Of a stretch of DNA of 53,222 nt, positions 10,198 to 29,181 are shown in pieces. The DNA lies in NCBI GenBank assembly GCA_016776875.1, contig JADHSN010000001.1:1-53222 (forward strand), in the 5' to 3' direction. The position numbers and the translations under genes were made by a program. The notes below the pieces were generated by a model. It was given only the letters and a program-made list of their open reading frames with translations. It was not told the DNA's origin and did not search any database. This stretch comes from Gammaproteobacteria bacterium. Its GTDB lineage: Bacteria; Pseudomonadota; Gammaproteobacteria; Arenicellales; UBA868. Every line of letters begins with the position of its first letter. Within the stretch, counting starts at the first letter, position 1.

Positions 10198-10207
10198 CCG
10201 TGTTCTC

Positions 10208-11745: not shown

Positions 11746-11787
11746 ATCGCTTCTCCTAAAGTCGGCGCTCAGGGCGCTGATAGTTAA

Positions 11788-13185: not shown

Positions 13186-13236
13186 TGTAAAAAACGCCGC
13201 GAACCAATATGAAGGTTCAACAATTAGCGGAATCGC

Positions 13237-14427
13237 TTAGGAGGATGGGCCGCTATCAAAGGCAGCCGTCGGCAAAAATGCCAGGACCCGCGTCCCTATC
13301 AGATACGTCAGTAACGCTAACCCTACGCCACCCATACCTAAGCCAAACTCGGCCAAAGACGGATGATATTCGGCAGTAACCCCGTCAAAAAATCCGCTTG
13401 TTTCTGTAAATCCGGGCACGATATCAATCGGAAATACCTGTCCGCCAATGATCAAAACATATAATTGGCAAAAAGCGCCCACGAGTACCAACGAAGCCGC
13501 CACAATGGTGGGCACCAACGTGCTGCATCGGCGCTGCATAAGCATGACGGCGGGCAATATGGTGCCTAGAAGAATTTGACCTATCCAGAACAACATTGAA
13601 TAGATCCCGCCTTCGAGCAGGATAAAGCGCTCCACGGAATAATGTTCCGCCCCGTAGAGGCGGGTCAGATGATCAACTACCACAAAAAAAGCAACGGCGA
13701 TAATGAAATATGCGAGCAATCGGCGCAGATTTAACATCAATTCGGTTGGAAGACCATCTCCTCTAATGCTAAAAATCAGGGCGCTTAAAATTAAGGTCAG
13801 GGCCGTTCCAAACGATAGAGACATCGCGATAAACATGGGCGCAAGCACTGCACTATCGAACGCTTCGCGCGCCGCTAAAAAAGCAAAAATAGAACCCGTA
13901 CCTGTTGTGAGCATCAAACGCCAGGCAAATGCGGTAGTCCCTACCCGACCCACAAAACGATTCATCCGGGGTTCAAACATCATCCAGAGATACACCACCA
14001 CCAAGACGATAAATCCGGTATAGAGAAAAATATTCCAGGCAAAAATAGACCTGAAGTTGTAATGCGTCATGGCCACAATCAGTCGATCAGGCCGACCCAG
14101 ATCAAGCACCAGCACTGTGAGGCCACCTACTAATAAAGTAATCGCCATCAAAGCGGACAACCTTGACAAAGGTTTATAGGTTTCCCTGCCGAAGACGGAC
14201 GCGATCGACGCCGCGTTTAATGCCCCAGATGCCGACACAATTAAGAAAACCGCGAAAACATGCGGGACGCCCCACACTACGCGATTATTCATACCGGTCA
14301 CCCAGTGACCCGCGCTCTCCATATGATGAGCAGACGCAAGACCCGCCACGACAAACGCAGTCGCGATCGCCACGACCGACCAAAACGGGGTCGAGGATGG
14401 CATATGTTGAAAAGTAGGCGTCCTCAT
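13237..14427 (-). CDS. dsrP: DsrP, NrfD-type integral membrane subunit
   Basis: DsrP is the quinone-interacting membrane subunit of the DsrMKJOP complex. The 396-residue protein is almost entirely hydrophobic, with about ten membrane spans, and has NrfD-family features such as GVPHVFAVFLIVSASGALNAASI and LSRLSALMAITLLVGGLTVLVLDLGRPDR near the N-terminus. It begins 10 bases after dsrO, which is a ferredoxin-like partner as in other NrfC/NrfD pairs. Length is normal for the family. Confidence 0.93.
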   Translation of the reverse strand: MRTPTFQHMPSSTPFWSVVAIATAFVVAGLASAHHMESAGHWVTGMNNRVVWGVPHVFAVFLIVSASGALNAASIASVFGRETYKPLSRLSALMAITLLVGGLTVLVLDLGRPDRLIVAMTHYNFRSIFAWNIFLYTGFIVLVVVYLWMMFEPRMNRFVGRVGTTAFAWRLMLTTGTGSIFAFLAAREAFDSAVLAPMFIAMSLSFGTALTLILSALIFSIRGDGLPTELMLNLRRLLAYFIIAVAFFVVVDHLTRLYGAEHYSVERFILLEGGIYSMLFWIGQILLGTILPAVMLMQRRCSTLVPTIVAASLVLVGAFCQLYVLIIGGQVFPIDIVPGFTETSGFFDGVTAEYHPSLAEFGLGMGGVGLALLTYLIGTRVLAFLPTAAFDSGPSS

Positions 14428-14437
14428 GAGATTGCAG

Positions 14438-15205
14438 TCAAAAGCTCGTGTAACGCACGCCCGTATTAAGTTTTAGATCAGGACGTAACTCCCGAGTCGC
14501 TGTTTTACTGCTCAACGAAGCCAGAGGTCCTGCGGCATCTTCGAGATCGCCAAATACCAAAGCGTCATGGCCCGCGGCACGACAGGCCTCAACGCAAGCC
14601 GGCTGTTGATCCTCGTCAACCCGGTGCACACACAGCGTACAACTCTCGACGGTGCCCTTCCCACGCGGTGAATGCGTCTTTTGACCCGTCAAATCTTCAT
14701 GGATAAATGATCGAGCCTGAAAAGGACACGCCATCATGCAGTAGCGACACCCGATACAAATATGCTTATCAACTAAGACAATCCCGTCTGCTCGACGAAA
14801 GGATGCGCCCGTTGGACAGACATCGACACAAGGCGGATCCTCACAGTGTTGGCAAAGAATGGGGATGGACAATTCGTGACCGGTCTGCTCATCTTTTAAG
14901 TCAACCTTTCGGATCCACTGTGCATCGGTCTCGGGACGACCATGACCGGAAAGGCCGTGTTCACTATTGCAAGCGGATACACACTCATCACATCCACTCT
15001 CACACTTGGCCGTGTCGACCAAAAGACCCCACCGCTTATCATTGCTCGGAGGACTATCCTCACTGTTCGCCATTGCGAGTTCGACGAGACGCACGCCCGG
15101 GGCAAGCGCCATCAGCGAAACCCCGGCCGCAGCCTGGGTAAAAAAAGTTCGACGGTGTTGAGCGAGTGCGGCGCTTTCGTCTTTTTTCATCGGTTTACAC
15201 GACAT
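14438..15205 (-). CDS. dsrO: DsrO, periplasmic iron-sulfur protein with Tat signal
   Basis: DsrO is the periplasmic [4Fe-4S] subunit of DsrMKJOP. From the ATG at 15205 it has 255 residues; longer in-frame starts overlap dsrJ and lack family similarity. A twin-arginine signal (HRRTFFTQAAAG, arginines 18-19) is followed by cysteine clusters CESGCDECVSAC, CQHCEDPPCVDVCP and CIGCRYCMMACPFQ, with a further group CTLCVHR...CVEAC, the arrangement expected for multiple cubane clusters in NrfC-like proteins. It sits between dsrJ and dsrP in canonical order. AAGGA lies somewhat far (11 bases) from the chosen ATG, so a start a few codons downstream is possible. Confidence 0.92.
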   Translation of the reverse strand: MSCKPMKKDESAALAQHRRTFFTQAAAGVSLMALAPGVRLVELAMANSEDSPPSNDKRWGLLVDTAKCESGCDECVSACNSEHGLSGHGRPETDAQWIRKVDLKDEQTGHELSIPILCQHCEDPPCVDVCPTGASFRRADGIVLVDKHICIGCRYCMMACPFQARSFIHEDLTGQKTHSPRGKGTVESCTLCVHRVDEDQQPACVEACRAAGHDALVFGDLEDAAGPLASLSSKTATRELRPDLKLNTGVRYTSF

Positions 15206-15225
15206 GATGGCAATTGTCCTTCTTT

Positions 15226-15618
15226 CTAATCTGGGACCGTAGCATGACAGGTAAAACAATCAATCTTCACCGCGGCATAGGTATGACAGGTTTGACAGAA
15301 CTGTCCCTCGGCATTAATCGGTAAGAATTCTCCGTCAGTGCCTTTTGACGCATGGCAGTCAATACATCCGGCCAAACTATGCCGCGTCCCGCGAATCCCA
15401 TGATAAACCGTTTGGTCGCGCTGATGCTTGATAAATTCAAAATGATCCCGACGCATAATCTCTATCGGTTCAACGCACTGCGCACCACGCCCCATCGGTA
15501 CTTCCGGCGTGACAACATCCGCTACTGCGGTTCCGGTACTCGAGAGAAGAGTCAAAAAAAGCGCGATTAACCCCGCAATTGAATTACGGTCAAGATTAAT
15601 CACTGTCGTGCGCTTCAA
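15226..15618 (-). CDS. dsrJ: DsrJ, periplasmic trihaem cytochrome c
   Basis: A 130-residue exported or membrane-anchored cytochrome of the DsrMKJOP complex. A hydrophobic signal/anchor covers about residues 13-34. Three CxxCH haem sites are visible: CIDCH (85-89), CQTCH (108-112) and CFTCH (121-125). C48 lies in the region where the unusual His/Cys-ligated haem of A. vinosum DsrJ takes its cysteine ligand. The start is probably a TTG at 15618, 11 bases after the dsrL stop; no ATG is available upstream of the signal segment, and a GTG five codons later is the alternative. Confidence 0.92.
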   Translation of the reverse strand: MKRTTVINLDRNSIAGLIALFLTLLSSTGTAVADVVTPEVPMGRGAQCVEPIEIMRRDHFEFIKHQRDQTVYHGIRGTRHSLAGCIDCHASKGTDGEFLPINAEGQFCQTCHTYAAVKIDCFTCHATVPD

Positions 15619-15629
15619 TCACTCTGGAC

Positions 15630-17582
15630 CTATTCACCCATACCCATGTCAATATAACCGGTCGGGCAAACATCGGCACAAATATGGCATCCAATACATT
15701 TAGAGTAGTCAGTATCAACATAGCGACCGGTCGTATACTGATCTTTTGAGACCTTAAAAACGGCATCCTGCGGGCAAAAAATAATGCAATTGTCGCACTC
15801 AAAGCAAAGGCCGCAACTCATACATCGCTCAGCCTCGGATTTAGCTGCATCATCATTTAAGCCGTGATGTCGCTCCTCAAAGTGACCCAGCACTTCTTCT
15901 GAGTTCGGTACAGTCGTTGCCCGCATATTGCGCGGGGTCTCTTCAAAATGCCCAAGAAATAAACCGTCAGACGGGATAATCTCATGAGCAGAACGGTCTT
16001 CGTAGTTATGGACTGCAAAATCTGCCTCCGCGGTACCCCAAGTCTCGCTATGATCATACGCTCCGGGCGCAAGAGACTGCTCGTTAAGTTTGGCCAGCAG
16101 GTCAAAATGATGGACATCTACTTTAGGTCGTCGACCCGGCGCTTCATCTTTTAAATAGTGATCCACACTCTTCGCTGCAATCGTTGCCTGCCCGATCGCC
16201 GTCGTCAACAGATGGGGCCGCACTATGTCCCCAGCCACAAAATGACCCTCTCGGTCAGGGACCTGGAAAAAATGATCCGCATCAATAAGTTGCCGCTCGT
16301 TCCCCATCTCCTCAATGCCTGAAAGGTCTCCTGCCTGCCCGATCGCTGACACAATTAAATCGGCTTCCACCTCAAACTCGGTGCCCTCCACCGGCATCGG
16401 TACTCCTTTATCATTAAATTGACACTTCGCGAGCCGAAGCGCTGTCGCTCGACCATGCTCGTTGCGAACAAGACCTATCGGCAGAACACCGTTAATAATC
16501 GTCACGCCCTCAGTCAACGCATCATCGACTTCTTCTTCGGTTGCTGTCATGTCTGGACGCTCAAATAGCGCCGTGAGGGTGACCTGCGCACCCTGTCGAG
16601 CCGCAACCATGGCAGAGTCATGAGCTGCGTAGCCGCCAATCACTTCTTCCGGCCGGTCTTTATCGCTAATTTTTTCAATCTTTCCTAACCGGCGGGCAAC
16701 TGACACCACGTCAATAGACGTATCACCACCACCGATACAAACAACGCGCTCCGCCGTCACTTTCATCGAGCCTTTGTTGAACGCATCGAGGAACGAAACA
16801 CCCGAGACACAGTTTGGCGTATCTTCCCAACCCTCAATCGGTAAATCACGGCCACTCTGGCACCCAACCGCCCAGAGAATCGCATCAAATTCAGACTCGA
16901 GTTCAGCAATCGATATATCGGTGCCGACCCGTACTCCGAAACGGACCTCAATATCGCCTAGCTCTAAAATTCGATCAATCTCACGATCCAATCGCTCTCG
17001 TGGCGTACGGTATCCCGGAATACCATAGCGAAACATACCGCCCAGTTTTTGCTGCGATTCAAAAATGGTTGATGCGTAACCCAATCGGCGAAGTTGATAA
17101 GCACCAGCAAGGCCAGCCGGTCCTCCTCCAATGATTGCCACGCGTTTATCACAAACTTTTGGCGCTGCCTCAAACCGAAACCCCTCCGTAAATGCGGTAT
17201 CACCAATAAATTGCTCAACAGAGTTGATGCCCACAAAGTCATCGACGTTATTACGGTTACAACCGCTCTCACAGGGCGCAGGGCAGACTCGACCCATCAT
17301 CGCCGGGAAAGGATTTGCGTCAGTCGCTCGCCGAAAAGCATACTCCTGCCAGGTCATTCCCTCAGGCGGACGCTCCATGCCGCGAACAATTTGTAGCCAG
17401 CCGCGAATATCTTCCCCAGAGGGGCAACTGCCCTGACAGGGAGGCGTTCTGTGAACATAAGTCGGACACTTGTGCGAATTATCCTCATTAAAAATTTGTT
17501 TTTTAAAGTCCTGCCACTGACTGTCTCCCTCTTCGTATTTTCGGAAGGTCAGTTTCTGCGCTTGTTCTTCGGAGGCTGCCAT
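15630..17582 (-). CDS. dsrL: DsrL, NAD(P)H:acceptor oxidoreductase
   Basis: DsrL is a flavin iron-sulfur oxidoreductase related to the glutamate synthase small subunit that works with DsrAB; in sulfur oxidisers it links sulfite production to NAD reduction. The 650 residues contain an N-terminal cysteine cluster (CPAPCESGCNRNNV), the FAD site AIIGGGPAGLAGAYQLRRLG, an NAD(P) site VVCIGGGDTSIDVVSVARR, GHFVAGD, and a C-terminal ferredoxin domain (CMSCGLCFECDNC..FCP, CIGCHICADVCP). The ATG at 17582 is preferred over 17603 because a strong AGGAGAGGA lies just before it. It is placed between dsrK and dsrJ as in A. vinosum. Its presence supports an oxidative Dsr pathway. Confidence 0.95.
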   Translation of the reverse strand: MAASEEQAQKLTFRKYEEGDSQWQDFKKQIFNEDNSHKCPTYVHRTPPCQGSCPSGEDIRGWLQIVRGMERPPEGMTWQEYAFRRATDANPFPAMMGRVCPAPCESGCNRNNVDDFVGINSVEQFIGDTAFTEGFRFEAAPKVCDKRVAIIGGGPAGLAGAYQLRRLGYASTIFESQQKLGGMFRYGIPGYRTPRERLDREIDRILELGDIEVRFGVRVGTDISIAELESEFDAILWAVGCQSGRDLPIEGWEDTPNCVSGVSFLDAFNKGSMKVTAERVVCIGGGDTSIDVVSVARRLGKIEKISDKDRPEEVIGGYAAHDSAMVAARQGAQVTLTALFERPDMTATEEEVDDALTEGVTIINGVLPIGLVRNEHGRATALRLAKCQFNDKGVPMPVEGTEFEVEADLIVSAIGQAGDLSGIEEMGNERQLIDADHFFQVPDREGHFVAGDIVRPHLLTTAIGQATIAAKSVDHYLKDEAPGRRPKVDVHHFDLLAKLNEQSLAPGAYDHSETWGTAEADFAVHNYEDRSAHEIIPSDGLFLGHFEETPRNMRATTVPNSEEVLGHFEERHHGLNDDAAKSEAERCMSCGLCFECDNCIIFCPQDAVFKVSKDQYTTGRYVDTDYSKCIGCHICADVCPTGYIDMGMGE

Positions 17583-17626
17583 CGCCGTTCCTCTCCTTTT
17601 CATATCAGCCGCGGCTTGCGGCTTTC

Positions 17627-19123
17627 TTAATGGTCGCTATTAAATACGAGTGCATCACCAATTAATTGGTGAACACTAATAATCATGTCCATGCCCATTC
17701 CGTAATGGGGTAAGACTTTCGAAAACTGGCTTTTGCATATCGCGCAAATCGCCGCCATATGCGTCACGCCATGAGATTCAATCACCTGTTGGAGCGCTTG
17801 CGCGCGCGGTAACGCACCCTTCACACGAAGCTCAATCAGATCATCCGTCAGCAAACCCCCGCCGCCGCCGCAACAGAACGTGTGTTCGTGGATGGTATCG
17901 GGTGCCATGTCTACAAAATGATTACATGCTGATCGAATCAGATTCCGGGGAATCGTAAACTGGCCTCCTGGCGTTGAGCCGAGGCGAGAGCCCCGAGACA
18001 CGTTACAAGAGTCATGAAAAGTAACGACTTTATCGTCGTTGGCCTCAGGATCTATTTTCAAACCCCCACTTGCAAGAAGGTCATTAGTGAATTCACAAAT
18101 GTGTTGGGGCACCGGGTAGGCAGGATCTAAAAAATCGAAAGGGCCTATAAGCGTATTCCAAAAACTGTAGGCCACCCGCCACGCGTGCCCGCATTCCCCG
18201 ACCACAATTCGTTTGACACCAAGATCCAGCGCTGCCTGCCGAATCCGCTCGGCAACTTTTTGCATATTCTCGTAGTTGCCGATGAAAATCCCAAAATTAG
18301 CCGCTTCAGAAGCATAGGAGCTGAGTGTCCAGCTTATTCCTGCCTGATGAAAAACTTTTGCATAGCCAATCAATCCATCCACATGGGGTTCAGCAAAGAA
18401 ATCTGCCGAGGGCGTAACAAGCAGGACGTCGGCGCCTTTCTGGTCAAGCGGAAACTTAACGGGGACGTTAATATCTTCTTCAACTTCTTCTTCAAGGCCT
18501 TCAAGCGTATCCGCTAGAGCAGGCTCTGGCAGGCCAAGATTGTTTCCTATCTTATGAACCTTGCCAATGATTTCGTTGGAATATTTCTGACCCACTCCAA
18601 TTGTCGCAAGAATCTCACGTCCCGCCATCGTGATCTCAGCTGTATCGATACCATAGGGACAGTAAACTGAACAACGTCGACATTCCGAACACTGATGGTA
18701 GTAGCTATACCAGTCGTTGATCACATCCTCAGAGAGTTCTACCGCACCGACCAGTTTGGGGAACCACTTACCGGCAAGCGTAAAATAACGACGATAGACC
18801 TTTCGCATCAGATCCTGTCGGGCAACTGGCATATTCTTGGGATCACCCGTGCCCAAATAATAATGACACTTATCAGTACATGCCCCACACTTGACGCAGG
18901 AATCCATGAAAACCTGGAGCGAGCGGTAGCGGCCCAGCAAATCACCCATCTTCTCCAGCGCAACTTCCTGCCAGTTGTCGACTAATTCACCCGGGAATCC
19001 AAGTGGTTCCTGATGCGCAGGCTTTGCGACAAAAGGCTTGCTATGCGCCATCGCATCACGCTGCACTGCTGGCGTACTCAACCAATCCTTCAGTGCAGGC
19101 GTTTCAAATTCTATTTTTGCCAT
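17627..19123 (-). CDS. dsrK: DsrK, iron-sulfur subunit of DsrMKJOP (HdrD-like)
   Basis: DsrK is the cytoplasmic catalytic subunit thought to act on the DsrC disulfide/trisulfide. The start is placed at the ATG at 19123, giving 498 residues; an extension to 19252 overlaps dsrM and has no family similarity. It has two ferredoxin-type clusters (C76-C79-C82-C86 and C145-C148-C151-C155) and two CCG-type regions, the second containing HDSCNVSRGSR and FCCGGGGG, which in heterodisulfide reductases hold a special [4Fe-4S] centre. It is 19 bases downstream of dsrM, its membrane partner. Confidence 0.95.
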   Translation of the reverse strand: MAKIEFETPALKDWLSTPAVQRDAMAHSKPFVAKPAHQEPLGFPGELVDNWQEVALEKMGDLLGRYRSLQVFMDSCVKCGACTDKCHYYLGTGDPKNMPVARQDLMRKVYRRYFTLAGKWFPKLVGAVELSEDVINDWYSYYHQCSECRRCSVYCPYGIDTAEITMAGREILATIGVGQKYSNEIIGKVHKIGNNLGLPEPALADTLEGLEEEVEEDINVPVKFPLDQKGADVLLVTPSADFFAEPHVDGLIGYAKVFHQAGISWTLSSYASEAANFGIFIGNYENMQKVAERIRQAALDLGVKRIVVGECGHAWRVAYSFWNTLIGPFDFLDPAYPVPQHICEFTNDLLASGGLKIDPEANDDKVVTFHDSCNVSRGSRLGSTPGGQFTIPRNLIRSACNHFVDMAPDTIHEHTFCCGGGGGLLTDDLIELRVKGALPRAQALQQVIESHGVTHMAAICAICKSQFSKVLPHYGMGMDMIISVHQLIGDALVFNSDH

Positions 19124-19142
19124 CGTGCGAGAGCCCTCACCT

Positions 19143-19880
19143 CTATTCGCTACTTGACCGCGGTGGATCATTCGCCCATGGCGCGACATGCCGATGCTCT
19201 CGAGGCGTATCGCGCATATTTCGAGTCGGACTAAAGAAGACCCCGGGTGCATGCAACAGTTTACTGAATGGAAAAATCAGCATGAGCACCAAAACAAAAG
19301 ACAAGTGCAGAATTAAAAGTCCATCAGATGGCAACGGCTGCCAATCGAAACGCACAAGGCCAAGTGCAAACGCTTTGACAGACACGATATCGGTATGTTG
19401 ACCATACTTCATCGCAAGACCCGACCCTGCAATAGCCAGTAATAGCGCGAGCATCAGATGGTCAGACGGCGCACTGATATATCGAATTCGATCGACCATG
19501 AGTCGGCGTAACCAAAGTCCAGCAAGGCCCAGAAACATCGCAATTCCGGCATAAACACCCGCCCACTGAATCAAAATTACCCACGACCATACCGGCTCTG
19601 TAAAGTAGCGTAAGTGGCGCATGAGCGCGACAAGCATTCCAAAATGAAATAGCCATCCAAACAGCCAACTCCACTTACTCCCTTTGAAAAGACTTTCAAA
19701 GAACACCACTTCTCGGAAAATCCGAGCGCAGACCCCCGTTCTGGTGGTCGGGGCGGGGGTCGTGGGGATCACCAGCGGGGCTGGCGTGCGCGAGTATCGC
19801 AAAATCCTCTCCCCCAAGCCGACAAGAAATATTACCGTTGCCAGGTAAAAAAGGATTGCAAAAATTGATCCTAGAAGCAC
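19143..19880 (-). CDS. dsrM: DsrM, NarI-like cytochrome b subunit
   Basis: DsrM anchors DsrK and exchanges electrons with quinones. The 245-residue protein has about five membrane spans with histidines in the helices (WLFHFGMLVALMRHLRY, SDHLMLALLLAIAG, LHLSFVLVLMLIFPFSKLLHAPG), matching diheme b-type NarI-like subunits. The C-terminal tail is cytoplasmic and basic/proline-rich. A GTG at 19880 is the only plausible start; the frame continues upstream without an ATG, so the true start could be slightly different. It is 95 bases downstream of dsrC. Confidence 0.92.
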   Translation of the reverse strand: MLLGSIFAILFYLATVIFLVGLGERILRYSRTPAPLVIPTTPAPTTRTGVCARIFREVVFFESLFKGSKWSWLFGWLFHFGMLVALMRHLRYFTEPVWSWVILIQWAGVYAGIAMFLGLAGLWLRRLMVDRIRYISAPSDHLMLALLLAIAGSGLAMKYGQHTDIVSVKAFALGLVRFDWQPLPSDGLLILHLSFVLVLMLIFPFSKLLHAPGVFFSPTRNMRDTPREHRHVAPWANDPPRSSSE

Positions 19881-19975
19881 AAGCGTAGCGTTGCCGGTTC
19901 GAGATAATGAGCGCGATGTTGAACTAACGCAGCGCTCTAATACTGAGCATAAAACTCAATTACTCAAAAACGGCA

Positions 19976-20308
19976 TCAGACGCAGCCTGTTGGCTTTGGA
20001 AGACCGGCATACTTACAAGCTTGCTTGGCGGGCCCATAAGGGAACAATTCGTATAAGTACTTGCTGTTTCCTTTATCTTTACCGAGTTTTTTGCCGATTG
20101 CTTTGGTCAAGACCCGAACCGCCGGGGCAATCTGATATTCGTCATAATACTCACGCAAAAAGTTAATGACTTCCCAGTGATTTTCGTCCAAATCACAATC
20201 ATCTTCCTTCGCCATATAAGCCGCCACATCAGCGTTCCACTCGCTCAAATCAGCGAGATAACCCTCTTCATCGACTTCATACGTTCTGCCGTCTAATTCA
20301 AATGCCAT
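19976..20308 (-). CDS. dsrC: DsrC, sulfur-carrier substrate protein of DsrAB
   Basis: DsrC carries the sulfur atom processed by DsrAB and forms the trisulfide handled by DsrMKJOP. The 110-residue protein ends in the flexible arm KQACKYAGLPKPTGCV, giving both conserved cysteines, C98 and the penultimate C109, separated by ten residues. The insertion KKLGKDKGNSKYLYELFPYGPAKQA is typical. GAGGAG lies 8 bases before the ATG. Presence of both cysteines separates it from TusE (one cysteine) and from the paralogue at 26890-27228, which has none. Confidence 0.97.
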   Translation of the reverse strand: MAFELDGRTYEVDEEGYLADLSEWNADVAAYMAKEDDCDLDENHWEVINFLREYYDEYQIAPAVRVLTKAIGKKLGKDKGNSKYLYELFPYGPAKQACKYAGLPKPTGCV

Positions 20309-20340
20309 TTTCGAACTCCTCTTTTGGTGCTAAGTAAAAA

Positions 20341-20643
20341 CTAAAGCCAGCTCTGAACCTTATCGTTCACAGTTGCTAGCTCAACAAATCCATCGTAACC
20401 CGTCACTTTGATGCCGGAGATCAGACGATCTTCTGAAATGCCGCGGGCCTTTAGATCTGGACCCAGCGCGTAGATTGTCACGTTATTTAACGCTTCCGCG
20501 ATCGTGTCAGAGTGAATGCTTCCCGATAACGCGCCATAAACGCCATCTTCAATCAATAATAGATCACTCCCTTGCTTTGCCAGCGAGAGGCAGGTCCTGA
20601 GACTTGAAGAATCATGCGGAGATTTGTTCACAGTGTGTAGCAT
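20341..20643 (-). CDS. dsrH: DsrH, sulfur-transfer subunit (TusB-like)
   Basis: DsrH is part of the DsrE2F2H2 hexamer that passes sulfur to DsrC. The 100-residue protein begins MLHTVNKSPHDSSSLRTCLSLA and continues DLLLIEDGVYGAL, a TusB/DsrH pattern. The conserved cysteine is C18, near the position of Cys20 in A. vinosum DsrH. GAGGA precedes the ATG. It is 16 bases downstream of dsrF and 32 upstream of dsrC. Confidence 0.95.
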   Translation of the reverse strand: MLHTVNKSPHDSSSLRTCLSLAKQGSDLLLIEDGVYGALSGSIHSDTIAEALNNVTIYALGPDLKARGISEDRLISGIKVTGYDGFVELATVNDKVQSWL

Positions 20644-20659
20644 CAGTTAAATCCTCGCA

Positions 20660-21067
20660 TCAGAAATTCAAGATCACATCTTGCGCTTCGAGCAAATCCG
20701 AGAGTTGTGCCCGACTCACAATGTGAATAGATTTTTTTTCAGCCCAGTCGTCGTCTTCATCTTCCCAGGTCAAGGGCATCAAATCATCTTCGTTGAGTCC
20801 GCGCTCTTCCAGAGACTCGCGCTCAACATAAAGACGATTAACTTCATAATCTCCCAGCGCTCGATAAGTCGGCGAGAAGTTTTTCATATCAGAATCAACT
20901 GTGTCCTGACCCTGCTTAAGCTGAAAAACGCCGTCACCAATAAACGCCATACTTACCTCTTGCTCAAATGCAGCACCAATGAGTACCACCTCAAGACCTT
21001 CAAGCGCATAAACCGTGCCATAGGGTGCATGACGGTTGACGTACATAAATTTTTTCGTTTCGCTCAT
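20660..21067 (-). CDS. dsrF: DsrF, sulfur-transfer subunit (TusC-like)
   Basis: DsrF is the structural partner in the DsrEFH sulfurtransferase. The 135 residues contain YVNRHAPYGTVYALEGLEVVLIGAAFEQEVSMAFIGDGVF, the hallmark TusC/DsrF layout. The ATG at 21067 is chosen over a TTG two codons earlier. No catalytic cysteine is expected and none is conserved. It lies between dsrE and dsrH with short spacers. Confidence 0.94.
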   Translation of the reverse strand: MSETKKFMYVNRHAPYGTVYALEGLEVVLIGAAFEQEVSMAFIGDGVFQLKQGQDTVDSDMKNFSPTYRALGDYEVNRLYVERESLEERGLNEDDLMPLTWEDEDDDWAEKKSIHIVSRAQLSDLLEAQDVILNF

Positions 21068-21078
21068 CGTCAAATCCG

Positions 21079-21471
21079 CTAATCGCCGAAAACCAAAACA
21101 CGATCTGACTGAATACCTGCTTCAATCAGTTGACCCAGTCCAGAGATTCGGAAACCCGGTGCAATGTTGTCGGCATCTTTACCATTTCGCTTAGCCTCAT
21201 CGGCATCCAAAATACCTCGACGCTGCGCGGCGGCCACACAGAGCACGAGATCAAGATCGTGTTCGGCCGCCAATGCACTCCAGCGATTGACAATATTCCG
21301 ATCATCCTGAGGCGGTGTTGTCATGCGCGTGCCGTTATTAACGCCATCGTGATAAAAGAACACGCGAAAGACCTCATGCCCCGCTTTTAACGCCGCATCG
21401 ATAAAGTGATACGCCGTATCGGCCGCCTGATGCGTATACGGTCCCTCGTTGACCATCACCGAAAACTTCAT
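21079..21471 (-). CDS. dsrE: DsrE, active sulfurtransferase subunit
   Basis: DsrE accepts and donates persulfide sulfur in the DsrEFH complex. The 130-residue protein has MKFSVMVNEGPYTHQAADTAYHFIDAALKAGHEV and FFYHDGV at the N-terminus. The catalytic cysteine is C78 in LDLVLCVAAAQRRG, exactly the numbering of the essential Cys78 in A. vinosum DsrE. It begins 9 bases after dsrB ends. Presence of dsrEFH is a marker for the oxidative Dsr pathway. Confidence 0.96.
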   Translation of the reverse strand: MKFSVMVNEGPYTHQAADTAYHFIDAALKAGHEVFRVFFYHDGVNNGTRMTTPPQDDRNIVNRWSALAAEHDLDLVLCVAAAQRRGILDADEAKRNGKDADNIAPGFRISGLGQLIEAGIQSDRVLVFGD

Positions 21472-21480
21472 CTGGCGTCC

Positions 21481-22554
21481 CTAGAAACGAATGTGGGTTG
21501 ACGCATTAAGGCTTTTTCTCGCGCCACGCCAGTTATCAATATGGAACTTAGTGAACGGTAATCCCGTCGCCTCAAAAAATCGGGGCCAGCCGATACGATC
21601 AATCCAGTCATTAATTCGCTCCCAATCCCGCGCATCCTCTTTGTAAGCCTGCAATATCCGCTTCACAATCGCCGTCGCCTCCGGCCATCGTGGCGGATTG
21701 TTGGGAACCCCTGATGCCACTAATTTTTGAAAACTAGGCTTACTCCGGGCATTCGAATGATTGCCGCCCACCCAAATCGCAAGTTTGGTGTGCTCCGGGT
21801 CGTTAATCTGCATGGGGGGACATGGGGGATAGCACGCACCACAGCAGATGCACTTCTTCTCATCCACCTCAAGCGTTGGCTTTCCATTGACCTGTGCAGG
21901 TCGAATGGCCGCTACGGGGCAGCGGGCCACAACCGATGGTCGCTCACAAACATTAGCAACGAGGTCATGATTGATCTTTGGCGGTTTGGTGTGCTGAACA
22001 TTTATCGCAATATCACCTTGTCCCCCGCAGTTAATCTGACAGCATGAAGTCGTGATGTGGACGCGGTTTGGCATATCACAATTTTTGAACTCGTCGATCA
22101 ACTCATCCATCATTGCTTTAACTACGCCAGACGCGTCCGTTCCTGGGATATCACAGTGCAGCCATCCCTGGGTATGGGAAATCATTGCGACAGAGTTAGC
22201 AGTGCCGCCAACAACAAACCCTGAATCTTCGAGCGCACTAATTAGAGGATCCACCTTCGACGCATCGGACACCATGTACTCAATATTGCTACGAATCGTA
22301 AATCGCACGAAACCGTCGGCAAATTGATCGCCAATATCGCAGAGTTTCCGAAGCGTGAACACATCGAGAATTCTTTGAGTCGCCGCTTTCACCGTCCATA
22401 CCTCGTCTCCACTTTTGGATACGTGGCGCAAGACTCCCGGCCGCGGGTGATCATGCCAGTCCCAGGAACCAAAGTTCTTAACCATTGAGGGATGCATGTA
22501 TTGGAAGCCATCCGGGCAACCTGATTCGATTGGCTTACGCATTTCTTTAGCCAT
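21481..22554 (-). CDS. dsrB: DsrB, reverse dissimilatory sulfite reductase beta subunit
   Basis: DsrB forms the alpha2beta2 sirohaem enzyme with DsrA. The ATG at 22554 has GGAGAG just upstream and is preferred to the TTG at 22566, giving 357 residues. Cluster/sirohaem cysteines are seen at C134 and in TTSCCQINCGG (C171, C172, C176). A ferredoxin insert has C235-C238-C241-C245 (KCICCGACYPPCPP). Sequence and operon context (dsrEFH, dsrL) fit the oxidative clade rather than sulfate reducers. Confidence 0.97.
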   Translation of the reverse strand: MAKEMRKPIESGCPDGFQYMHPSMVKNFGSWDWHDHPRPGVLRHVSKSGDEVWTVKAATQRILDVFTLRKLCDIGDQFADGFVRFTIRSNIEYMVSDASKVDPLISALEDSGFVVGGTANSVAMISHTQGWLHCDIPGTDASGVVKAMMDELIDEFKNCDMPNRVHITTSCCQINCGGQGDIAINVQHTKPPKINHDLVANVCERPSVVARCPVAAIRPAQVNGKPTLEVDEKKCICCGACYPPCPPMQINDPEHTKLAIWVGGNHSNARSKPSFQKLVASGVPNNPPRWPEATAIVKRILQAYKEDARDWERINDWIDRIGWPRFFEATGLPFTKFHIDNWRGARKSLNASTHIRF

Positions 22555-22587
22555 AGTTCTCTCCAAAAAATTCTTGTATTAAGCGAA

Positions 22588-23862
22588 TCAACCTGCAGCA
22601 GATTGACTTTCTGCCTGACGCTCGAACCACTTCACCGCCTCTTCATCCCAGCCATCCATTCGTACGTAAGAAGACTGTCGGGGATCGGAAATCATATGAG
22701 GATCCACCTCAATTTCGATTCCCTCTAAGAAGTTGACCAAGCCGATTCGCTCAATCATCTCGCCGCAGCGCTCATGTTCAAGGCCGTTCTCGGCCCAAAA
22801 ATCAATGGTGTTTTCAGCTATTTCAGTAATCTTTTCGTAATCCTCTTCAGATTCAAGCTTCATAAAGGGAACAATGACTGTACCCATGAGGTCACCAATC
22901 TTTAGCGTACGCTTTCCGCCCATCAAGATGGTAACGCCCTTGTCTTCTCCAGGCGATAACGCTTTTGGCACTACATTCAGACAGTGCATGCAACGCACGC
23001 AATTTCGGTTATCCACTTCCAGCGAATCATCGTCTTTAAGACTCATGCAGCGTGTCGGGCACCGCGTAATAATGTTATCAATCGTGTGCTGGCGGCCTTT
23101 TTCAGACACATATGCCTTCCAAGCCTCCTGGTCCACTTTCATATCGTCACGCCAGGTGCCAATGACGGCCATATCTGCTCGCTCGATGGAGTTCATGCAG
23201 TCATTAGGACAGCCCGACACCTTGAATTTAAATTTATAAGGAAGCGCGGGTCGATGCACATCATCCGTGAAATTATTAACTAGCGTTCTATGAATCTTGT
23301 GTTCATTCGCGCAGGACTGCTCACATCGTGCGGCCCCAACACAAGACATCGCGGTGCGAACACAAGGCCCTGCGCCGCCCAGATCGAACCCATAATCATT
23401 AATCTCATCGAAAAAATGTTGCGTGTTATCCGTCGACGATCCGATAAACATGATGTTGCCCGTCTGCCCATGGAACGTAACCAGACCAGACCCCCACTTC
23501 TCCCAACTATCAGCGAGTTGTCGCAGAATGTCGGTGCTATAGTGATTACCGGCAGGGGGCTGAACACGCAGCGTGTGAAACTCTTTTGATTCTGGAAACT
23601 GCTGACCCACCTCGGAAAAGCGCGGAATAATACCGCCCCCATAACCATAAACGCTGACCGTGCCGCCTTTCCAATAGCCTTTGCGGGTCTCATAAGAGTG
23701 CTCAAGCTGCCCCAGCAGATCATTGGCAACCCCATTAATGCGCGCCTCTGGGTGCTCGTCACGGAGGCGTTTGATGCCCGATATAAAACTTGGCCAGGGA
23801 CCATTTTCGAGCTCATCAAGCATCGGGGTGTCATGTTGCTTTTTATCAGTCATTTTCGTCAC
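22588..23862 (-). CDS. dsrA: DsrA, reverse dissimilatory sulfite reductase alpha subunit
   Basis: DsrA with DsrB oxidises DsrC-bound or reduced sulfur to sulfite in the cytoplasm. The 424-residue protein has the sirohaem-[4Fe-4S] motif C174-X5-C180 (SCVGAARCEQSC) with C218-X3-C222 (SGCPNDC), and a ferredoxin domain with C268, C272, C288, C291 and C294 (NCVRCMHC). A GTG at 23862 has AAGGG four bases upstream; an ATG three codons later (23853) is a possible alternative. It is the first gene of the 14-gene operon, and the upstream 445-base region holds paired palindromes. Confidence 0.97.
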   Translation of the reverse strand: MTKMTDKKQHDTPMLDELENGPWPSFISGIKRLRDEHPEARINGVANDLLGQLEHSYETRKGYWKGGTVSVYGYGGGIIPRFSEVGQQFPESKEFHTLRVQPPAGNHYSTDILRQLADSWEKWGSGLVTFHGQTGNIMFIGSSTDNTQHFFDEINDYGFDLGGAGPCVRTAMSCVGAARCEQSCANEHKIHRTLVNNFTDDVHRPALPYKFKFKVSGCPNDCMNSIERADMAVIGTWRDDMKVDQEAWKAYVSEKGRQHTIDNIITRCPTRCMSLKDDDSLEVDNRNCVRCMHCLNVVPKALSPGEDKGVTILMGGKRTLKIGDLMGTVIVPFMKLESEEDYEKITEIAENTIDFWAENGLEHERCGEMIERIGLVNFLEGIEIEVDPHMISDPRQSSYVRMDGWDEEAVKWFERQAESQSAAG

Positions 23863-24057
23863 TATTCCCTTTTATTTCCGGTCGGGTTTGGCTGTGCAGA
23901 CCTCGCACAACAACTTCACTGCCATCGACGGGGCGGGTTCGCAATTACAATGCGACTCTCGGGTCTTCCGCATGCCTTGGTGGAGCGATGGTTTTGAATT
24001 CGATGTCCATTTTAAGCCTGGTCGGGGCAGGCGCCATTCCCACAGGGGGTGACCATT

Positions 24058-24067
24058 AGAAATTCTG
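24058..24067. promoter_or_regulatory. palindrome copy 1 (AGAAATTCTG)
   Basis: AGAAATTCT is a nearly perfect palindrome around a central A, and the ten-base sequence AGAAATTCTG is repeated exactly 47 bases downstream. Position, about 195 bases upstream of dsrA, suits an operator for the dsr operon and/or the divergent cassette. The binding protein is unknown. Confidence 0.4.
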
Positions 24068-24102
24068 ATTTACCCAATAAGGGATAGGTTTTATTTTGCA
24101 AT

Positions 24103-24115
24103 GCAGAAATTCTGC
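24103..24115. promoter_or_regulatory. palindrome copy 2 (GCAGAAATTCTGC)
   Basis: A perfect 13-base inverted repeat (six-base arms around a central A) that contains the second AGAAATTCTG. It lies about 240 bases upstream of dsrA and 190 bases upstream of the TauD-like gene. The arms are too short and lack a following T-run, so a terminator is unlikely; a dimeric regulator site is the natural reading. Confidence 0.45.
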
Positions 24116-24307
24116 TTGGGGCCAAAATCCGTAAAACTATTATTTCTCTATATAAACCAATAATTTAACTATTTTCTGCACCGTTCATATTTTTGACGGC
24201 TGCCTATAGATCAAAGGCGCGAGCCCCACAACTTCTGTTGAATCCGTCTTTTGGGAGAGTTTTATAAATTGTCCCCCTCGTTACAATCTTTCCAACCAGA
24301 ATCCTAA

Positions 24308-25219
24308 ATGTTTGCCCCTTTGAACTTAACTGCATATCAATCGACGTTTACACCGCGCAACCCCGAAGCAAATGTCTTTGCAAATGAGCGTCACTGGGAT
24401 CACTGGCTTTGCAAATATCGGGAATCATTAGAGACACTCGTCGTTGATATCGAAACGCCCGCTCATCTCACAACTCAGGAACGCTCGGCCATTCAGGCTC
24501 GACTCAGTAGCGCCAATATGGTGGTTTACCGATGCGGGTCGTCAGAAGCCGTAAATCGCAACCAGATCGCCCGACTCGCAGAACAGTTCGGCTTGCTTAA
24601 CCCCACCCACAACCTCTTTGCAGCAGAAGATGGTCTTAGCGAAATCGAAGTGAAAGCCGATGGACCTTCAAGCCAATACATCCCCTACACCAATCGCGCG
24701 CTCAACTGGCATACCGATGGCTACTATCGTAGTCACAAAAATCCTGTCCGGGCAATGTTGCTTCATTGTGTGAGGCCGGCCCAGAACGGCGGATCGCTTG
24801 AAGCCATAGACTCGCGAGCACTGTACGGGCTTCTCAAACAAAAAGACCATCGATTCACCGAAGCGCTTCGGATGCCTGATGTCATGTGGATTCCTGAGAA
24901 CCAAGCACATGGCGCCAATCGCGAAGCCTCTTTAGGCCCTGTTTTCTTTTTTGAGAATAACTGTCTTCAGATGCGCTATACCGCTCGAAAACACAATGTC
25001 GTTTGGAAAAACACCGTTTTGATCTCGGAAGCAAAAGACGCGCTCGAAGAATATCTTGAGGACCCCAGTATCCGTTTTAGATATCAACTTCAGGCCGGTG
25101 AGGGATTGTTAAGTGCGAATGTACCGCATCGAAGAGAACCTTTTTTTGATTCAGACGCTCGCGCGGGGCGTTTGATATACCGCGGTCGCTATGCGCAACC
25201 GATTTCAACTGAGGCTTAA
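24308..25219 (+). CDS. TauD/TfdA-family 2-oxoglutarate/Fe(II) dioxygenase
   Basis: A 303-residue member of the taurine dioxygenase-like family. The iron ligands are visible as H135-x-D137 in LNWHTDGYY and distal H274 in NVPHRREPF, with a likely 2-oxoglutarate arginine at about 292-294 (YRGRY). NGGSLEAIDS is also family-like. The family couples oxidation of 2-oxoglutarate to hydroxylation of varied substrates, including C-S compounds such as taurine, but substrate cannot be read from sequence. There is no taurine transporter nearby. It opens a plus-strand cassette divergent from dsrA. A second, unrelated 2OG oxygenase occurs at 38915-39496. Confidence 0.8.
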   Translation: MFAPLNLTAYQSTFTPRNPEANVFANERHWDHWLCKYRESLETLVVDIETPAHLTTQERSAIQARLSSANMVVYRCGSSEAVNRNQIARLAEQFGLLNPTHNLFAAEDGLSEIEVKADGPSSQYIPYTNRALNWHTDGYYRSHKNPVRAMLLHCVRPAQNGGSLEAIDSRALYGLLKQKDHRFTEALRMPDVMWIPENQAHGANREASLGPVFFFENNCLQMRYTARKHNVVWKNTVLISEAKDALEEYLEDPSIRFRYQLQAGEGLLSANVPHRREPFFDSDARAGRLIYRGRYAQPISTEA

Positions 25220-25225
25220 AAGGCT

Positions 25226-25420
25226 ATGGACAGCGTACTTTGGATCAGCGAGCTGATTCTGCAAAATCAACCCGCGACTTTCGCCGAACTTACCGATCTG
25301 GTTCGCGAACGTGCACGGGCAGGGGATCGGTTTTTACGGATGGACGTTAAACCGCCTTATCCTGATACGCCCGACAACTGGGAATTCCGGCTCGAAGGCG
25401 CCTTCACCAGCCCCGTCTAG
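25226..25420 (+). CDS. 64-residue protein of unknown function
   Basis: A small soluble protein (MDSVLWISELILQNQPATF...) starting 6 bases after the dioxygenase stop, with AAAAGG close before the ATG. It has an amphipathic N-terminal helix and a C-terminal half rich in proline and tryptophan (PPYPDTPDNWEF). No signal peptide, cysteines or known motif. Tight spacing suggests co-translation with the dioxygenase and the next gene. I do not recognise the family. Confidence 0.6.
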   Translation: MDSVLWISELILQNQPATFAELTDLVRERARAGDRFLRMDVKPPYPDTPDNWEFRLEGAFTSPV

Positions 25421-25446: not shown

Positions 25447-26151
25447 ATGAAATATCTTAACAACGAATTTGACCTCGGCGCCGAATCTGAGGAGGACGCG
25501 TCAACCTCTGTCGAGGCGCTTGAGGCCCAGCTTGGCGCGGTAAGAGAAAGATTAAATGAGGCCCAGGCTCAAATTGACGCCCCGCAATGGCGCCAGCTCG
25601 CGTTACAGGAAGGCCGCCTTCTCGTCATGCTCGAAAAAGGCGATGAAGCGTGGTCGAGCGCCAAAATTTGCTTTGACCAATTTTGTAATGCAAAGCTCTG
25701 GGCAGACACTGTTGAAGCCGCACGAATCATGTTCCAGTCGGGGCACTCTGATTCACTTATTGCACTCGGTCACGGCGTCTGGCTCGCAGTCACTTTCCCA
25801 GTCGATCCAGAGCTTTCAGTAGCACTCCTCCAAGATATCATCGACGAAACACCTGATGACTCTGATGGCGCTGCCGTTGCGGCTGCTGTTGCTGCCTATA
25901 TTGTTGATCTACGCGCAGAAGGAAAAGAGCACGAATCCTTGTCTTTTTTTACCAACCAAATGTTGGGTGCAGTCGCCCGTCGACACAGCAGTATTGAAAA
26001 TCAGGAAGCTTTTGATCAATGGATCTCTAGACTCGAATTAAACGACCCCACTCGATTCCTACCGCGCCTCCGAAATGTTGTAGACGTATTAGTACAAGAC
26101 AACTGGTGGATTGATCGAGAGGCAATCCAGGCCGCGTTGCCGATACAGTAA
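25447..26151 (+). CDS. helical, TPR-like protein of unknown function
   Basis: A 234-residue acidic, predicted cytoplasmic protein. The N-terminal part (about 15-55) is a charged helix (EALEAQLGAVRERLNEAQAQ), followed by alternating helices with repeat-like periodicity (WRQLALQEGRLLVMLEKGDEAWSSAKICF, LWADTVEAARIMF) resembling tetratricopeptide repeats, though no canonical TPR consensus is certain. No signal peptide or catalytic motif. It lies 26 bases after the small ORF and 8 bases before the Cas6-like gene. It may be a protein-binding partner of a neighbour; that is inference. Confidence 0.65.
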   Translation: MKYLNNEFDLGAESEEDASTSVEALEAQLGAVRERLNEAQAQIDAPQWRQLALQEGRLLVMLEKGDEAWSSAKICFDQFCNAKLWADTVEAARIMFQSGHSDSLIALGHGVWLAVTFPVDPELSVALLQDIIDETPDDSDGAAVAAAVAAYIVDLRAEGKEHESLSFFTNQMLGAVARRHSSIENQEAFDQWISRLELNDPTRFLPRLRNVVDVLVQDNWWIDREAIQAALPIQ

Positions 26152-26159
26152 GAATCACG

Positions 26160-26858
26160 ATGTCATCTGCCTACTGGACTGAATCTGAGCTTGAAAAAGC
26201 GAAACCGGTAAAACCCGTGGTGGTTGATGTCGTCTTTAAAATTCGAGGTCGGCAGGTAGCGGCTGATCATGCTTTTGCTTTATCGAAAGCGCTCACAAAT
26301 GAACTCCCATGGCTTGGCACTGAACGAGAGGTCAGTATCCATCTGATCCACGGTGCACAATCCGCTAATGGATGGTGCAAGCCTGATGATAGCGGCATTA
26401 TCGAGCTTTCAGGTCGAACTCGCCTTATCATCCGAGTGCCGCACACTCGACTTGAAGACGCAAAAGCCTTAATCGGCGCCAGTTTGAATCTTGACGAGCA
26501 CAAGATTGAAATACTCGATGCAAAACCTCGACCACTTTCAGCCAATTCGACCGTTTTTGCCCACCATGTTCGATCACCGGATGGCACAAATAGTGAACCG
26601 GCGTTTTTAGCTTCTGCAGCGCACTGGCTAGAAGATCTCGCCATTACGCCCAAAAAAATGCTCTGCGGGGGGATGCGTCATCTAAACATGAATGAATCGG
26701 TTATCTCGACCCGGAGTCTTTTAATTGCGGAACTTAACCCTACCGAATCCATTGCCGTTCAGACGCACGGGCTGGGACCGGACCGATTATTGGGATGCGG
26801 CGTTTTTGTCCCCTCCAAGAGTATATCGGCCGTCCACCAACCGGAATCTGACCATTAA
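26160..26858 (+). CDS. Cas6/Cmx6-like RAMP-fold protein, no CRISPR context
   Basis: A 232-residue protein that resembles the Cas6 variant called Cmx6 (type I-MYXAN). Supporting features are the start VVDVVFKIRGRQVAADHAFALSKAL, the W51 region LPWLG followed by EVSIHLIHGA, the basic-strand pattern TRLIIRVP, and at residues 204-214 a glycine-rich loop GLGPDRLLGCG that fits the Cas6 GxG...GxG signature. Cas6 proteins cut CRISPR precursor RNA. I see no CRISPR repeats and no other cas gene in the window, and the gene sits in a sulfur-oxidation cassette. Histidines H37, H61 and H64 could be catalytic. Function here is unknown; RNA binding is a reasonable inference from the fold. Confidence 0.6.
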   Translation: MSSAYWTESELEKAKPVKPVVVDVVFKIRGRQVAADHAFALSKALTNELPWLGTEREVSIHLIHGAQSANGWCKPDDSGIIELSGRTRLIIRVPHTRLEDAKALIGASLNLDEHKIEILDAKPRPLSANSTVFAHHVRSPDGTNSEPAFLASAAHWLEDLAITPKKMLCGGMRHLNMNESVISTRSLLIAELNPTESIAVQTHGLGPDRLLGCGVFVPSKSISAVHQPESDH

Positions 26859-26889: not shown

Positions 26890-27228
26890 ATGCCAATCGA
26901 AGTTGACGGAAAATCAGTTGCCACCAACGAAAACGGGTTTCTCGAAAACCCGGATGACTGGAGTCAATCAGTCGCTGAGGCGATGGCAGCCACAGAGGAT
27001 CTCGCCCTGACACAAGAGCATTGGGATGTGATTCACTATCTACGAGAAGAGTATTTTTCAAACAACGGGAACCAGCCGAACAACCGAACGTTATTAAAAA
27101 AAATGGGGTCTCTTTGGGATCGGAAAGTGAGCAATAAAGAAATGTTCGATTTATTCCCTGGTAATCCGAGCAAGCAAGCTGGCCGTCTGTCCGGCCTACC
27201 CGAAAGTATGCGAAAAGGCGGCTATTAA
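26890..27228 (+). CDS. DsrC/TusE-family paralogue lacking all cysteines (RspA-like)
   Basis: A 112-residue protein that follows the DsrC pattern throughout: IEVDGKSVATNENGFLENPDDWSQSVAEAMA, EHWDVIHYLREEYF, then LFPGNPSKQAGRLSGLP. The cysteine at DsrC position 98 is glycine, the penultimate cysteine is gone, and the tail ends ESMRKGGY. The protein has no cysteine at all, so it cannot carry sulfur as DsrC does. Cysteine-lacking members have been described as RspA, regulatory sulfur-related proteins. TAGGAA precedes the ATG. It is 31 bases after the Cas6-like gene. A role in regulation or competition with DsrC is inferred. Confidence 0.85.
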   Translation: MPIEVDGKSVATNENGFLENPDDWSQSVAEAMAATEDLALTQEHWDVIHYLREEYFSNNGNQPNNRTLLKKMGSLWDRKVSNKEMFDLFPGNPSKQAGRLSGLPESMRKGGY

Positions 27229-27288: not shown

Positions 27289-27492
27289 ATGAGTGGAAAG
27301 AAAGAGCTGATCGAAAAAATGATCGCGATGCAAAAAGCGTTTATCGACCAAGAACAGAATGGAGGCATCAATCCAAAAGATTACTTCGCGCCAGAAGATG
27401 GCCACGCGTTAGACGGCTATCGAGAATCATATGAAAAACTTGCGACACAGGTCGTCGACTTAGCTCATGAGGAGAAGGGCTCAAAGCGCTGA
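27289..27492 (+). CDS. 67-residue protein of unknown function
   Basis: A small, charged, predicted cytoplasmic helical protein (MSGKKELIEKMIAMQKAF...) with an internal NPKDYFAPEDGHAL segment. A strong AAAGGAGAG lies a few bases before the ATG, suggesting efficient translation. It follows the DsrC-like gene by 60 bases and ends 8 bases from a convergent gene. No cysteines, signal or known domain; I do not recognise the family. Confidence 0.7.
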   Translation: MSGKKELIEKMIAMQKAFIDQEQNGGINPKDYFAPEDGHALDGYRESYEKLATQVVDLAHEEKGSKR

Positions 27493-27500
27493 GCCTTAAT

Positions 27501-28547
27501 CTAAAGGGCAAGCGCTTCTATCGAACATCCCTCAAAAACACCATTCTGCGGCTCACCACTGGCTCGATGTCGCGCCAGGAGCCCGGTGGCCTGACGGCGC
27601 CAGTGATGACTTCCTTTGCGCACGATTTTTCGCAAGGGTTGAAAATCACCTCCATCAACCCAGCGCTGATAAGCGTTAAATAGCGACGGGAACAATTGCC
27701 GGCGAATGCCCGCCATGGTCGCAAAATAAAAGTGTAAAGGAGATTTTTCTTCCTGACTCAATAACGCCGGTAGCACCATCATGCAATCAGCAAGCAGGTC
27801 TCGAACCGCCCGAATCAAAATCTCTTGTGCTCGGTCGCTGGCCGCCATCACCATCTGATTCCAGTCGTCTCCTAGACACTCTCCGCATATTTTTTCTCCC
27901 AATTCATGCAGAATCGCGAACTCACTAAATTGCTCAGCCATCCGATCAAGGGCGGTCTCTGGATCTTGACCAAATCCATAACCCGCGAGTGTTCGGGCCA
28001 TCGCATTTTTAGGTTTTTTCCACCGCCACTCCTCAATCATCTCCCATAAAACCCGACGAAGCGCTTCTTGCCGAATCCATATCGTGGTGCCGCGCGTCAT
28101 GGCAGGAGGCGCGATCAGTTCACGAACAACCTCTTCTCCAGTATAAAAAAGTTCGTACCCGTCTCCTTGCTCAAAGGTGGTGAGGCGGCCAAGCGAAAAC
28201 ACCGGTTTATCGAATCGACCAATCCCAGCGCTATAGCCGTAACCTTGCGGTACAAGCCAGCTGTTGATCTGCTCGATATCAAAAGCATCGACTTCACCCG
28301 TCGGCAACGGAATCTTGCGGTACGACTGACCTTCTAAGGTGTCCCAATATTGCTCGCGCGCCGATACCCACTCTCCTACCATTCCGGCATCCAGCTTCGC
28401 ATCGTAAGGTAGATTCTGTTCCCACCTAAAGTACTCTCTCATATGCATTAAATAAACGCATAACGAATAATCACCTGCGTGTTCTGCGTCAGAGAGATCG
28501 CAGTTGTATTTGACTGACTCAATCAACAAATTAGGAAGTGACGACAT
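27501..28547 (-). CDS. conserved-looking protein of unknown function (possibly Sfum_1244-like)
   Basis: A 348-residue predicted cytoplasmic protein. The N-terminus SVKYNCDLSDAEHAGDYSLCVYLMHMREYFRWEQ and the later GKPVFSLGRL-like strand and FAILHELGEKICGECLGDDW resemble proteins I recall annotated as Sfum_1244 family, which have no assigned function; I hold this loosely. The HELGE sequence is not a full HExxH metalloprotease site. No signal peptide or membrane span. It is divergent from the next gene with only about 40 bases between starts and convergent with the 67-residue gene. Confidence 0.65.
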   Translation of the reverse strand: MSSLPNLLIESVKYNCDLSDAEHAGDYSLCVYLMHMREYFRWEQNLPYDAKLDAGMVGEWVSAREQYWDTLEGQSYRKIPLPTGEVDAFDIEQINSWLVPQGYGYSAGIGRFDKPVFSLGRLTTFEQGDGYELFYTGEEVVRELIAPPAMTRGTTIWIRQEALRRVLWEMIEEWRWKKPKNAMARTLAGYGFGQDPETALDRMAEQFSEFAILHELGEKICGECLGDDWNQMVMAASDRAQEILIRAVRDLLADCMMVLPALLSQEEKSPLHFYFATMAGIRRQLFPSLFNAYQRWVDGGDFQPLRKIVRKGSHHWRRQATGLLARHRASGEPQNGVFEGCSIEALAL

Positions 28548-28587
28548 CTGTAAACCTTAAGATAAAATGGGGGTGAGAAGCAATACT

Positions 28588-29181
28588 ATGGCGACAAGAA
28601 TCCGCGACCGGTGGCGAAATACCGGACAACCTGTTCCGCTTGAGGAAAATGCAAAAGCGCTGGCTTACGTATGCTGGCAACTCGCATTAACGTCTGCCCG
28701 TAATCTTCATGCGGAGGATTACATCTATGATGATGACCAACAACGGGTTGGCGTCATTCGAGAGTATCTGATCTTCCTCGTACACGTCGCGGACCGGCTG
28801 GCTTTTGATCTTCTCGACGAAGGCGATCGGCCCGAGTTTGTCTCTGCGCTCGCCTACAATTGCGGGTCGCAACTACAACGAAACGCCAGCGAAATCTTGG
28901 GTTCCGGGGATTATCGCGATGCGTTTATAGCCGCACTTAACGATCGCAGTTCTGATTACGGTCAATGCTCGTTTCAAAGCGGTTTACCGGGCTACAGTCT
29001 TCTGCGTGTTTTTGGGGATCGCGTAAAAGCGATAATGGGGGATGACCAAACCAATCGATGGGTAATCGATCAAGTCATGGAGATTGACGGCCCGGATCTT
29101 GCTAAAAGACTTTCGAAGTCGTTTAGCAACTTGGTCAAAGGCTCATCGGTTGACGAGCCTCGCGATGGATTTTCACCCTAA
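28588..29181 (+). CDS. helical protein of unknown function
   Basis: A 197-residue predicted cytoplasmic, mostly alpha-helical protein. An ATG at 28567 would add seven residues; the ATG at 28588 is preferred because a GGTGAGAAG stretch lies upstream and the sequence MATRIRDRWRNTGQ reads as a natural start. Two cysteines (in AYVCWQL and LAYNCGSQ) and a third in YGQCSF are scattered. I recognise no domain. Its start region is back-to-back with the unknown gene at 28547, so the two probably share a compact divergent promoter. Confidence 0.65.
   Translation: MATRIRDRWRNTGQPVPLEENAKALAYVCWQLALTSARNLHAEDYIYDDDQQRVGVIREYLIFLVHVADRLAFDLLDEGDRPEFVSALAYNCGSQLQRNASEILGSGDYRDAFIAALNDRSSDYGQCSFQSGLPGYSLLRVFGDRVKAIMGDDQTNRWVIDQVMEIDGPDLAKRLSKSFSNLVKGSSVDEPRDGFSP

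Follow-up and report, generated by a model that had tools for sequence, protein, structure and literature searches.

A Cas6-family protein kept beside the reverse-Dsr genes of gammaproteobacterial sulfur oxidisers

Cas6 is an RNA-processing enzyme of CRISPR systems, and its appearance among genes for sulfur oxidation raises the question of what it does there. The window analysed here is a stretch of 53,222 nucleotides from a gammaproteobacterial genome (contig JADHSN010000001.1). A first-pass annotation had picked out an open reading frame with a Cas6-type glycine loop, next to a DsrC lookalike inside a sulfur cassette and with no repeat array or other cas gene in the window, and had suggested that a repurposed RNA-binding or RNA-cutting protein might act on the dsr transcript. 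On balance we favour the view that this protein, here called Cas6L (Cas6-like protein), is a domesticated, probably RNA-binding Cas6 that serves with its DsrC-like neighbour in the post-transcriptional control of sulfur oxidation. The features on which the argument draws are as follows.

11416–22566, minus strand: dsrB, E, F, H, C, M, K, L, J, O, P, N and R, the rest of the reverse-Dsr (rDsr) operon
22588–23862, minus strand: dsrA, first gene of the divergent rDsr operon (TIGR02064, 637 bits)
23863–24307: divergent intergenic region between dsrA and tauD, with GGGATAGG, half of a TATCCC-N4-GGGATA dyad, at 24076–24090
24308–25219, plus strand: tauD, a TauD/TfdA-family 2-oxoglutarate dioxygenase, first gene of the cassette (PF02668, E 4e-18)
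25226–25420, plus strand: conserved 64-aa ORF with the motif VKPPYPDTPENWEDRLEAAF, between tauD and the 234-aa ORF
25447–26151, plus strand: conserved 234-aa all-helical (TPR-like) protein, ending 8 nt before Cas6L
26160–26858, plus strand: Cas6L, 232 aa with an ATG start, identified by the PF09559 and TIGR02807 profiles, model and alignment
26890–27228, plus strand: DsrC/TusE-family paralogue adjoining Cas6L (PF04358, E 8.5e-32)
27289–27492, plus strand: conserved 67-aa protein, from alignment, in 43/70 loci
27501–28547, minus strand: DUF6866/Sfum_1244-family protein, a frequent neighbour of Cas6L
28567–29181, plus strand: 204-aa protein of no assigned function, next to Cas6L also in the most distant loci (L052–L055)

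That Cas6L belongs to the Cas6 family, and that it is linked to sulfur oxidation, is near certain. The PF09559 Cas6 profile matches it over the full length (185.7 bits, E 1.1e-54, Pfam cut-off 26.7), and the NCBIfam profile TIGR02807 (cas6_cmx6) matches at 113.1 bits against an equivalog cut-off of 98.85. The glycine loop reads exactly as first reported, GLGPDRLLGCG, and spans G204–G214; His37 is the candidate catalytic residue, and R92 is also present. An AlphaFold2 model made from an 80-sequence alignment (mean pLDDT 89.9) consists of two beta-alpha-beta RRM halves of ferredoxin-like type. All 39 PDB matches of this model with E no higher than 0.001 belong to the Cas6 family or to Cascade; 8fcu and 8fcj (TM 0.76–0.83) lead them, followed by other Cas6 structures, including that of Pyrococcus furiosus. 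Structure prediction therefore gives the Cas6 RAMP fold expected of the Cas6-type RNA endonuclease family that the first-pass annotation had named. The sole close PDB relative is 8fcj_B, a type I-B CAST Cas6, which is matched over nearly the full length (E 4e-12) and reaches E 9e-25 in a profile search.

P. furiosus Cas6 (3PKM, 3I4H) shares the duplicated RRM/RAMP fold (Foldseek E 8e-9), but it is a CRISPR-linked enzyme with about 11% identity to Cas6L. The type I-MYXAN (I-B like) Cas6/Cmx6 and the CAST Cas6 8FCJ share the PF09559/TIGR02807 profile, the tandem RRM fold, the glycine loop and R92. However, they are only 24–28% identical to Cas6L, which has no adjacent cas genes or repeats and differs further in its fixed place beside dsrA, its own residues W72, R86, E146 and K220, and its separate clade. 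Among close relatives dN/dS is 0.12, and the protein is under purifying selection. No relatives were found in the viral contigs searched.

The occurrence of the gene follows that of dsrA. In a sample of 369 gammaproteobacterial genomes, Cas6L is present in 118 (the window's own and 117 with a homologue at about 32–46% identity) and dsrA profile matches in 119; both are found together in 111, which is 111/118 carriers and 111/119 dsrA genomes (Fisher p about 7e-75, which overstates independence because the genomes are related by descent). Same-contig pairs lie within 6 kb of each other in 82 of 84 cases, and all 82 are divergent. Eight of the 15 exceptions were inspected (G070, G093, G110, G123, G127, G207, G299 and G317); in each the contig breaks off beside the gene in question, so these look like assembly gaps. 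A separate PF09559 family search in 398 Pseudomonadota genomes found four further genomes with copies 28–33% identical to the window protein, every one of them divergent from dsrA and beside a DsrC-family gene. Scanning a collection with one genome per species gave 424 confirmed relatives, of which 80 loci from named assemblies were kept; dsrA lies upstream of Cas6L in 51 of the 55 kept loci with room. Carriers span 87 genera in one sample, and the gene is retained in small genomes of about 1.0–1.1 Mb. Fidelity close to that of dsrA across 87 genera argues for a real function outside immunity.

Outside the Gammaproteobacteria the picture differs. None of the 48 dsrA genomes of other classes among the 398 Pseudomonadota has a PF09559 match. 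We read the dsr loci of 12 of them: five are oxidative operons with dsrEFH, and in the other seven, as in reductive types, dsrEFH is missing beside dsrAB. Cas6L and the DsrC-like gene are absent beside dsr in all five oxidative loci, so the core chemistry does not require Cas6L. Four of the five keep tauD, in divergent orientation, and the 64-aa ORF; these two genes therefore look like older companions of dsr, while the sequences make the pair of Cas6L and DsrC-like gene look like a gammaproteobacterial addition.

The dsr operon of the window has the 14 genes first counted, dsrABEFHCMKLJOPNR, from about 23862 to 11416 on the minus strand, with dsrJ and dsrO assigned from gene order and cross-locus similarity. 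The cassette on the plus strand runs tauD, 64-aa ORF, 234-aa ORF, Cas6L, DsrC-like gene and 67-aa ORF. The DsrC lookalike was thus rightly recognised as a neighbour, but the sulfur cassette in which Cas6L had been placed is a separate one that diverges from the dsr operon on the other strand, and the gene consequently lies outside the dsr transcript.

The other cassette genes vary in how widely they are kept. The tauD gene is present at 51/55 loci. The 64-aa ORF, which has no Pfam family, is found in 105/121 dsr/Cas6-like loci and is also carried by alpha-type dsr loci. A k-mer search for RNA motifs in front of the cassette had turned up TGGGAAGACC, but this sequence is part of the coding region of this previously overlooked ORF. 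The 234-aa protein is highly conserved and confined to part of the lineages, and no database family was found for it; identification as a Cas11/Cse2-like small subunit, suggested by weak profile matches, was rejected because a structure search gave only weak TPR-like matches. It seems often to be present where the 67-aa ORF, which has no Pfam match, is undetected, and vice versa.

The DsrC-like gene is a constant partner, lying at most 2.5 kb downstream of Cas6L in 64 of 70 loci with room. Aligned with true DsrC, its product is without both C-terminal DsrC cysteines and ends in RKGGY. Cysteine-less DsrC paralogues, which we take to be the RspA group of the DsrC literature, resemble it in the DsrC profile and in the missing cysteines, but the Cas6L neighbour is set apart by its conserved RKGGY end and its pairing with a Cas6-like gene.

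Motifs conserved in the dsrA–tauD region across 90 genomes are CCTAGACTTC, a possible -10 element some 160 nt ahead of dsrA; ACACCCCAWGGGTAGG, which in several genomes keeps a constant offset of 34 bp; and the TATCCC-N4-GGGATA dyad between the divergent promoters. Only the dyad is partly recognisable in the window. These conserved motifs are compatible with shared transcriptional control of the dsr operon and the cassette. No Rfam family was found in the window. Directly downstream of dsrR, genes for a histidine kinase and a LuxR-type response regulator (9532–11275, minus strand) form a possible regulator pair for the sulfur cluster.

We propose that a Cas6 lineage left CRISPR immunity and that Gammaproteobacteria retained it as an accessory to sulfur oxidation by reverse Dsr. 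Cas6L would still bind RNA at a short specific site, and probably cleave it there, acting together with the cysteine-less DsrC-like protein; the latter would read the state of the sulfur relay, and the two would adjust post-transcriptionally how strongly sulfur-oxidation genes are expressed. The predicted fold and the conserved Cas6 residues make it likely that Cas6L binds RNA and plausible that it cleaves it, and from the sequence an RNA-level role is likely. The constant adjacency of the cysteine-less DsrC paralogue suggests joint action, and because this protein keeps the DsrC fold it could read the relay state. More tentatively, the two may form an RNA–protein regulator through which the state of the relay would govern the cleavage or protection of specific RNAs.

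In the alignment the candidate catalytic His37 is present in 117 of 120 sulfur-linked copies and in all seven cyanobacterial relatives; three carriers have a replacement (two N, one Y), and the solved type I-B CAST Cas6 8fcj has N at the equivalent position, so catalysis is not assured. These replacements, together with the constantly adjacent DsrC-like gene, would suit a Cas6L that only binds, its fold kept as a scaffold for RNA or protein, for example in complex with the DsrC-like protein. However, a histidine kept in 117/120 copies argues for a job, maybe a structural one, and we regard a role limited to binding as rather unlikely.

Cleavage of the long dsr transcript at intergenic stem-loops, by which Cas6L as an endoribonuclease would set the dosage of individual Dsr proteins, is improbable. 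Strong hairpins do exceed chance in carriers, occurring in 37% at dsrA–dsrB and 48% at dsrC–dsrM versus 5% in shuffles for both. However, stems of at least 9 bp are also found in non-gamma dsr operons that lack Cas6L (4/5 at dsrA–dsrB and 2/5 at dsrC–dsrM), both hairpins are absent in the window, in three close relatives and in four carriers of about 1.0–1.1 Mb, and a GCGGGG stem base is common to only 13% and 5% of carriers at the two sites. Since they occur without Cas6L and are missing in the window, these hairpins are disfavoured as its target. They do not track the gene, and the action on the dsr transcript envisaged at first is not supported by present evidence, with unstructured sites in dsr mRNA a possible target. 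RNAalifold returned no structure from alignments of the intergenic regions, which are highly diverged. As a separate observation, strong dsr intergenic hairpins are seen in related loci with or without Cas6L (for example L043, L049 and L051) and may set Dsr protein dosage through attenuation or mRNA stability.

The lack of a CRISPR context in the window is borne out for an array and for cas3, cas5, cas7, cas8 and cas1. Cas1, Cas2, DevR/Cas7 and Cas3-HD were not detected in the window's genome either, although at 75% completeness this alone is no proof. The whole-genome CRISPR search first called for could be carried through for 53% of the genome, in which there is no array; the spacings of the lone candidate are multiples of 9, which suggests a repeat within coding sequence. 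No arrays were found in the loci beside Cas6L by a script that detected control arrays, and one CRISPR-like match, in L103, is a spacerless tandem repeat. Six of seven cyanobacterial plasmid relatives do have cas operons (cas3, cas5, cas7, cas8, cas1) beside them, and the same script found arrays at two, so the method detects true cases. An ordinary CRISPR Cas6 serving arrays elsewhere in the genome in trans, as the score above the TIGR02807 equivalog cut-off and the presence of some cas1 in 50/118 carriers might suggest, is largely refuted and scarcely credible, because cas1 is absent in 68/118 carriers (8 of them single-contig genomes) and not significantly associated with Cas6L (p = 0.13), inheritance tracks dsrA and not cas genes, and the window's own genome has no detected cas partners.

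The domesticated Cas6 that we favour also has a lineage of its own. In a tree of 127 sequences (120 sulfur-linked and seven cyanobacterial), unrooted with respect to the wider Cas6 family, the two groups fall on opposite sides of a split with support of 0.99, so that the copies of sulfur oxidisers do form their own clade relative to the seven cyanobacterial ones. The glycine-loop glycines, R92 and the histidine at the start of helix 1, for which 8fcj has N, are common to both groups. The sulfur-linked copies alone have R86 and E146 (120/120; P at the E146 position in the cyanobacterial copies) and a fixed or nearly fixed K220, and W72 is found in all 116 gammaproteobacterial copies. The repurposing of a Cas6 outside CRISPR is well supported, since Cas6L co-occurs with dsrA, lies in a fixed divergent arrangement, does not depend on cas1 and forms a separate clade marked by invariant residues of its own; exaptation from a CRISPR system is the parsimonious, if not proven, reading of the sequences. 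A further Cas6/Cmx6 copy without cas genes lies on the Gloeobacter morelensis plasmid pGMOR1 (L078, 6959–7750), next to genes of the PAPS-reductase family and not far from a DNA methyltransferase, and may represent another use of Cas6 independent of CRISPR.

Post-transcriptional control of dsr genes has reportedly been described in work on DsrR of Allochromatium vinosum, and Cas6L is a concrete candidate for such control. We found no description of a dsr-linked Cas6 in the literature searched, from which subscription papers were mostly missing, so its novelty is unproven. As cited in PMC5944118, DsrC binds DNA upstream of the dsr cluster, and as cited in PMC11406059, DsrR has a regulatory role.

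For annotation, TIGR02807 would label the Cas6L of hundreds of genomes as 'type I-MYXAN CRISPR-associated Cas6/Cmx6', and such a label without a CRISPR system can mislead CRISPR typing. As a marker of reverse-Dsr sulfur oxidation in Gammaproteobacteria, Cas6L is almost as reliable as dsrA. If the proposed role is true, it would mean that a Cas6 was exapted from CRISPR to serve metabolic control and that gammaproteobacterial sulfur oxidisers, small-genome lineages included, have preserved it.
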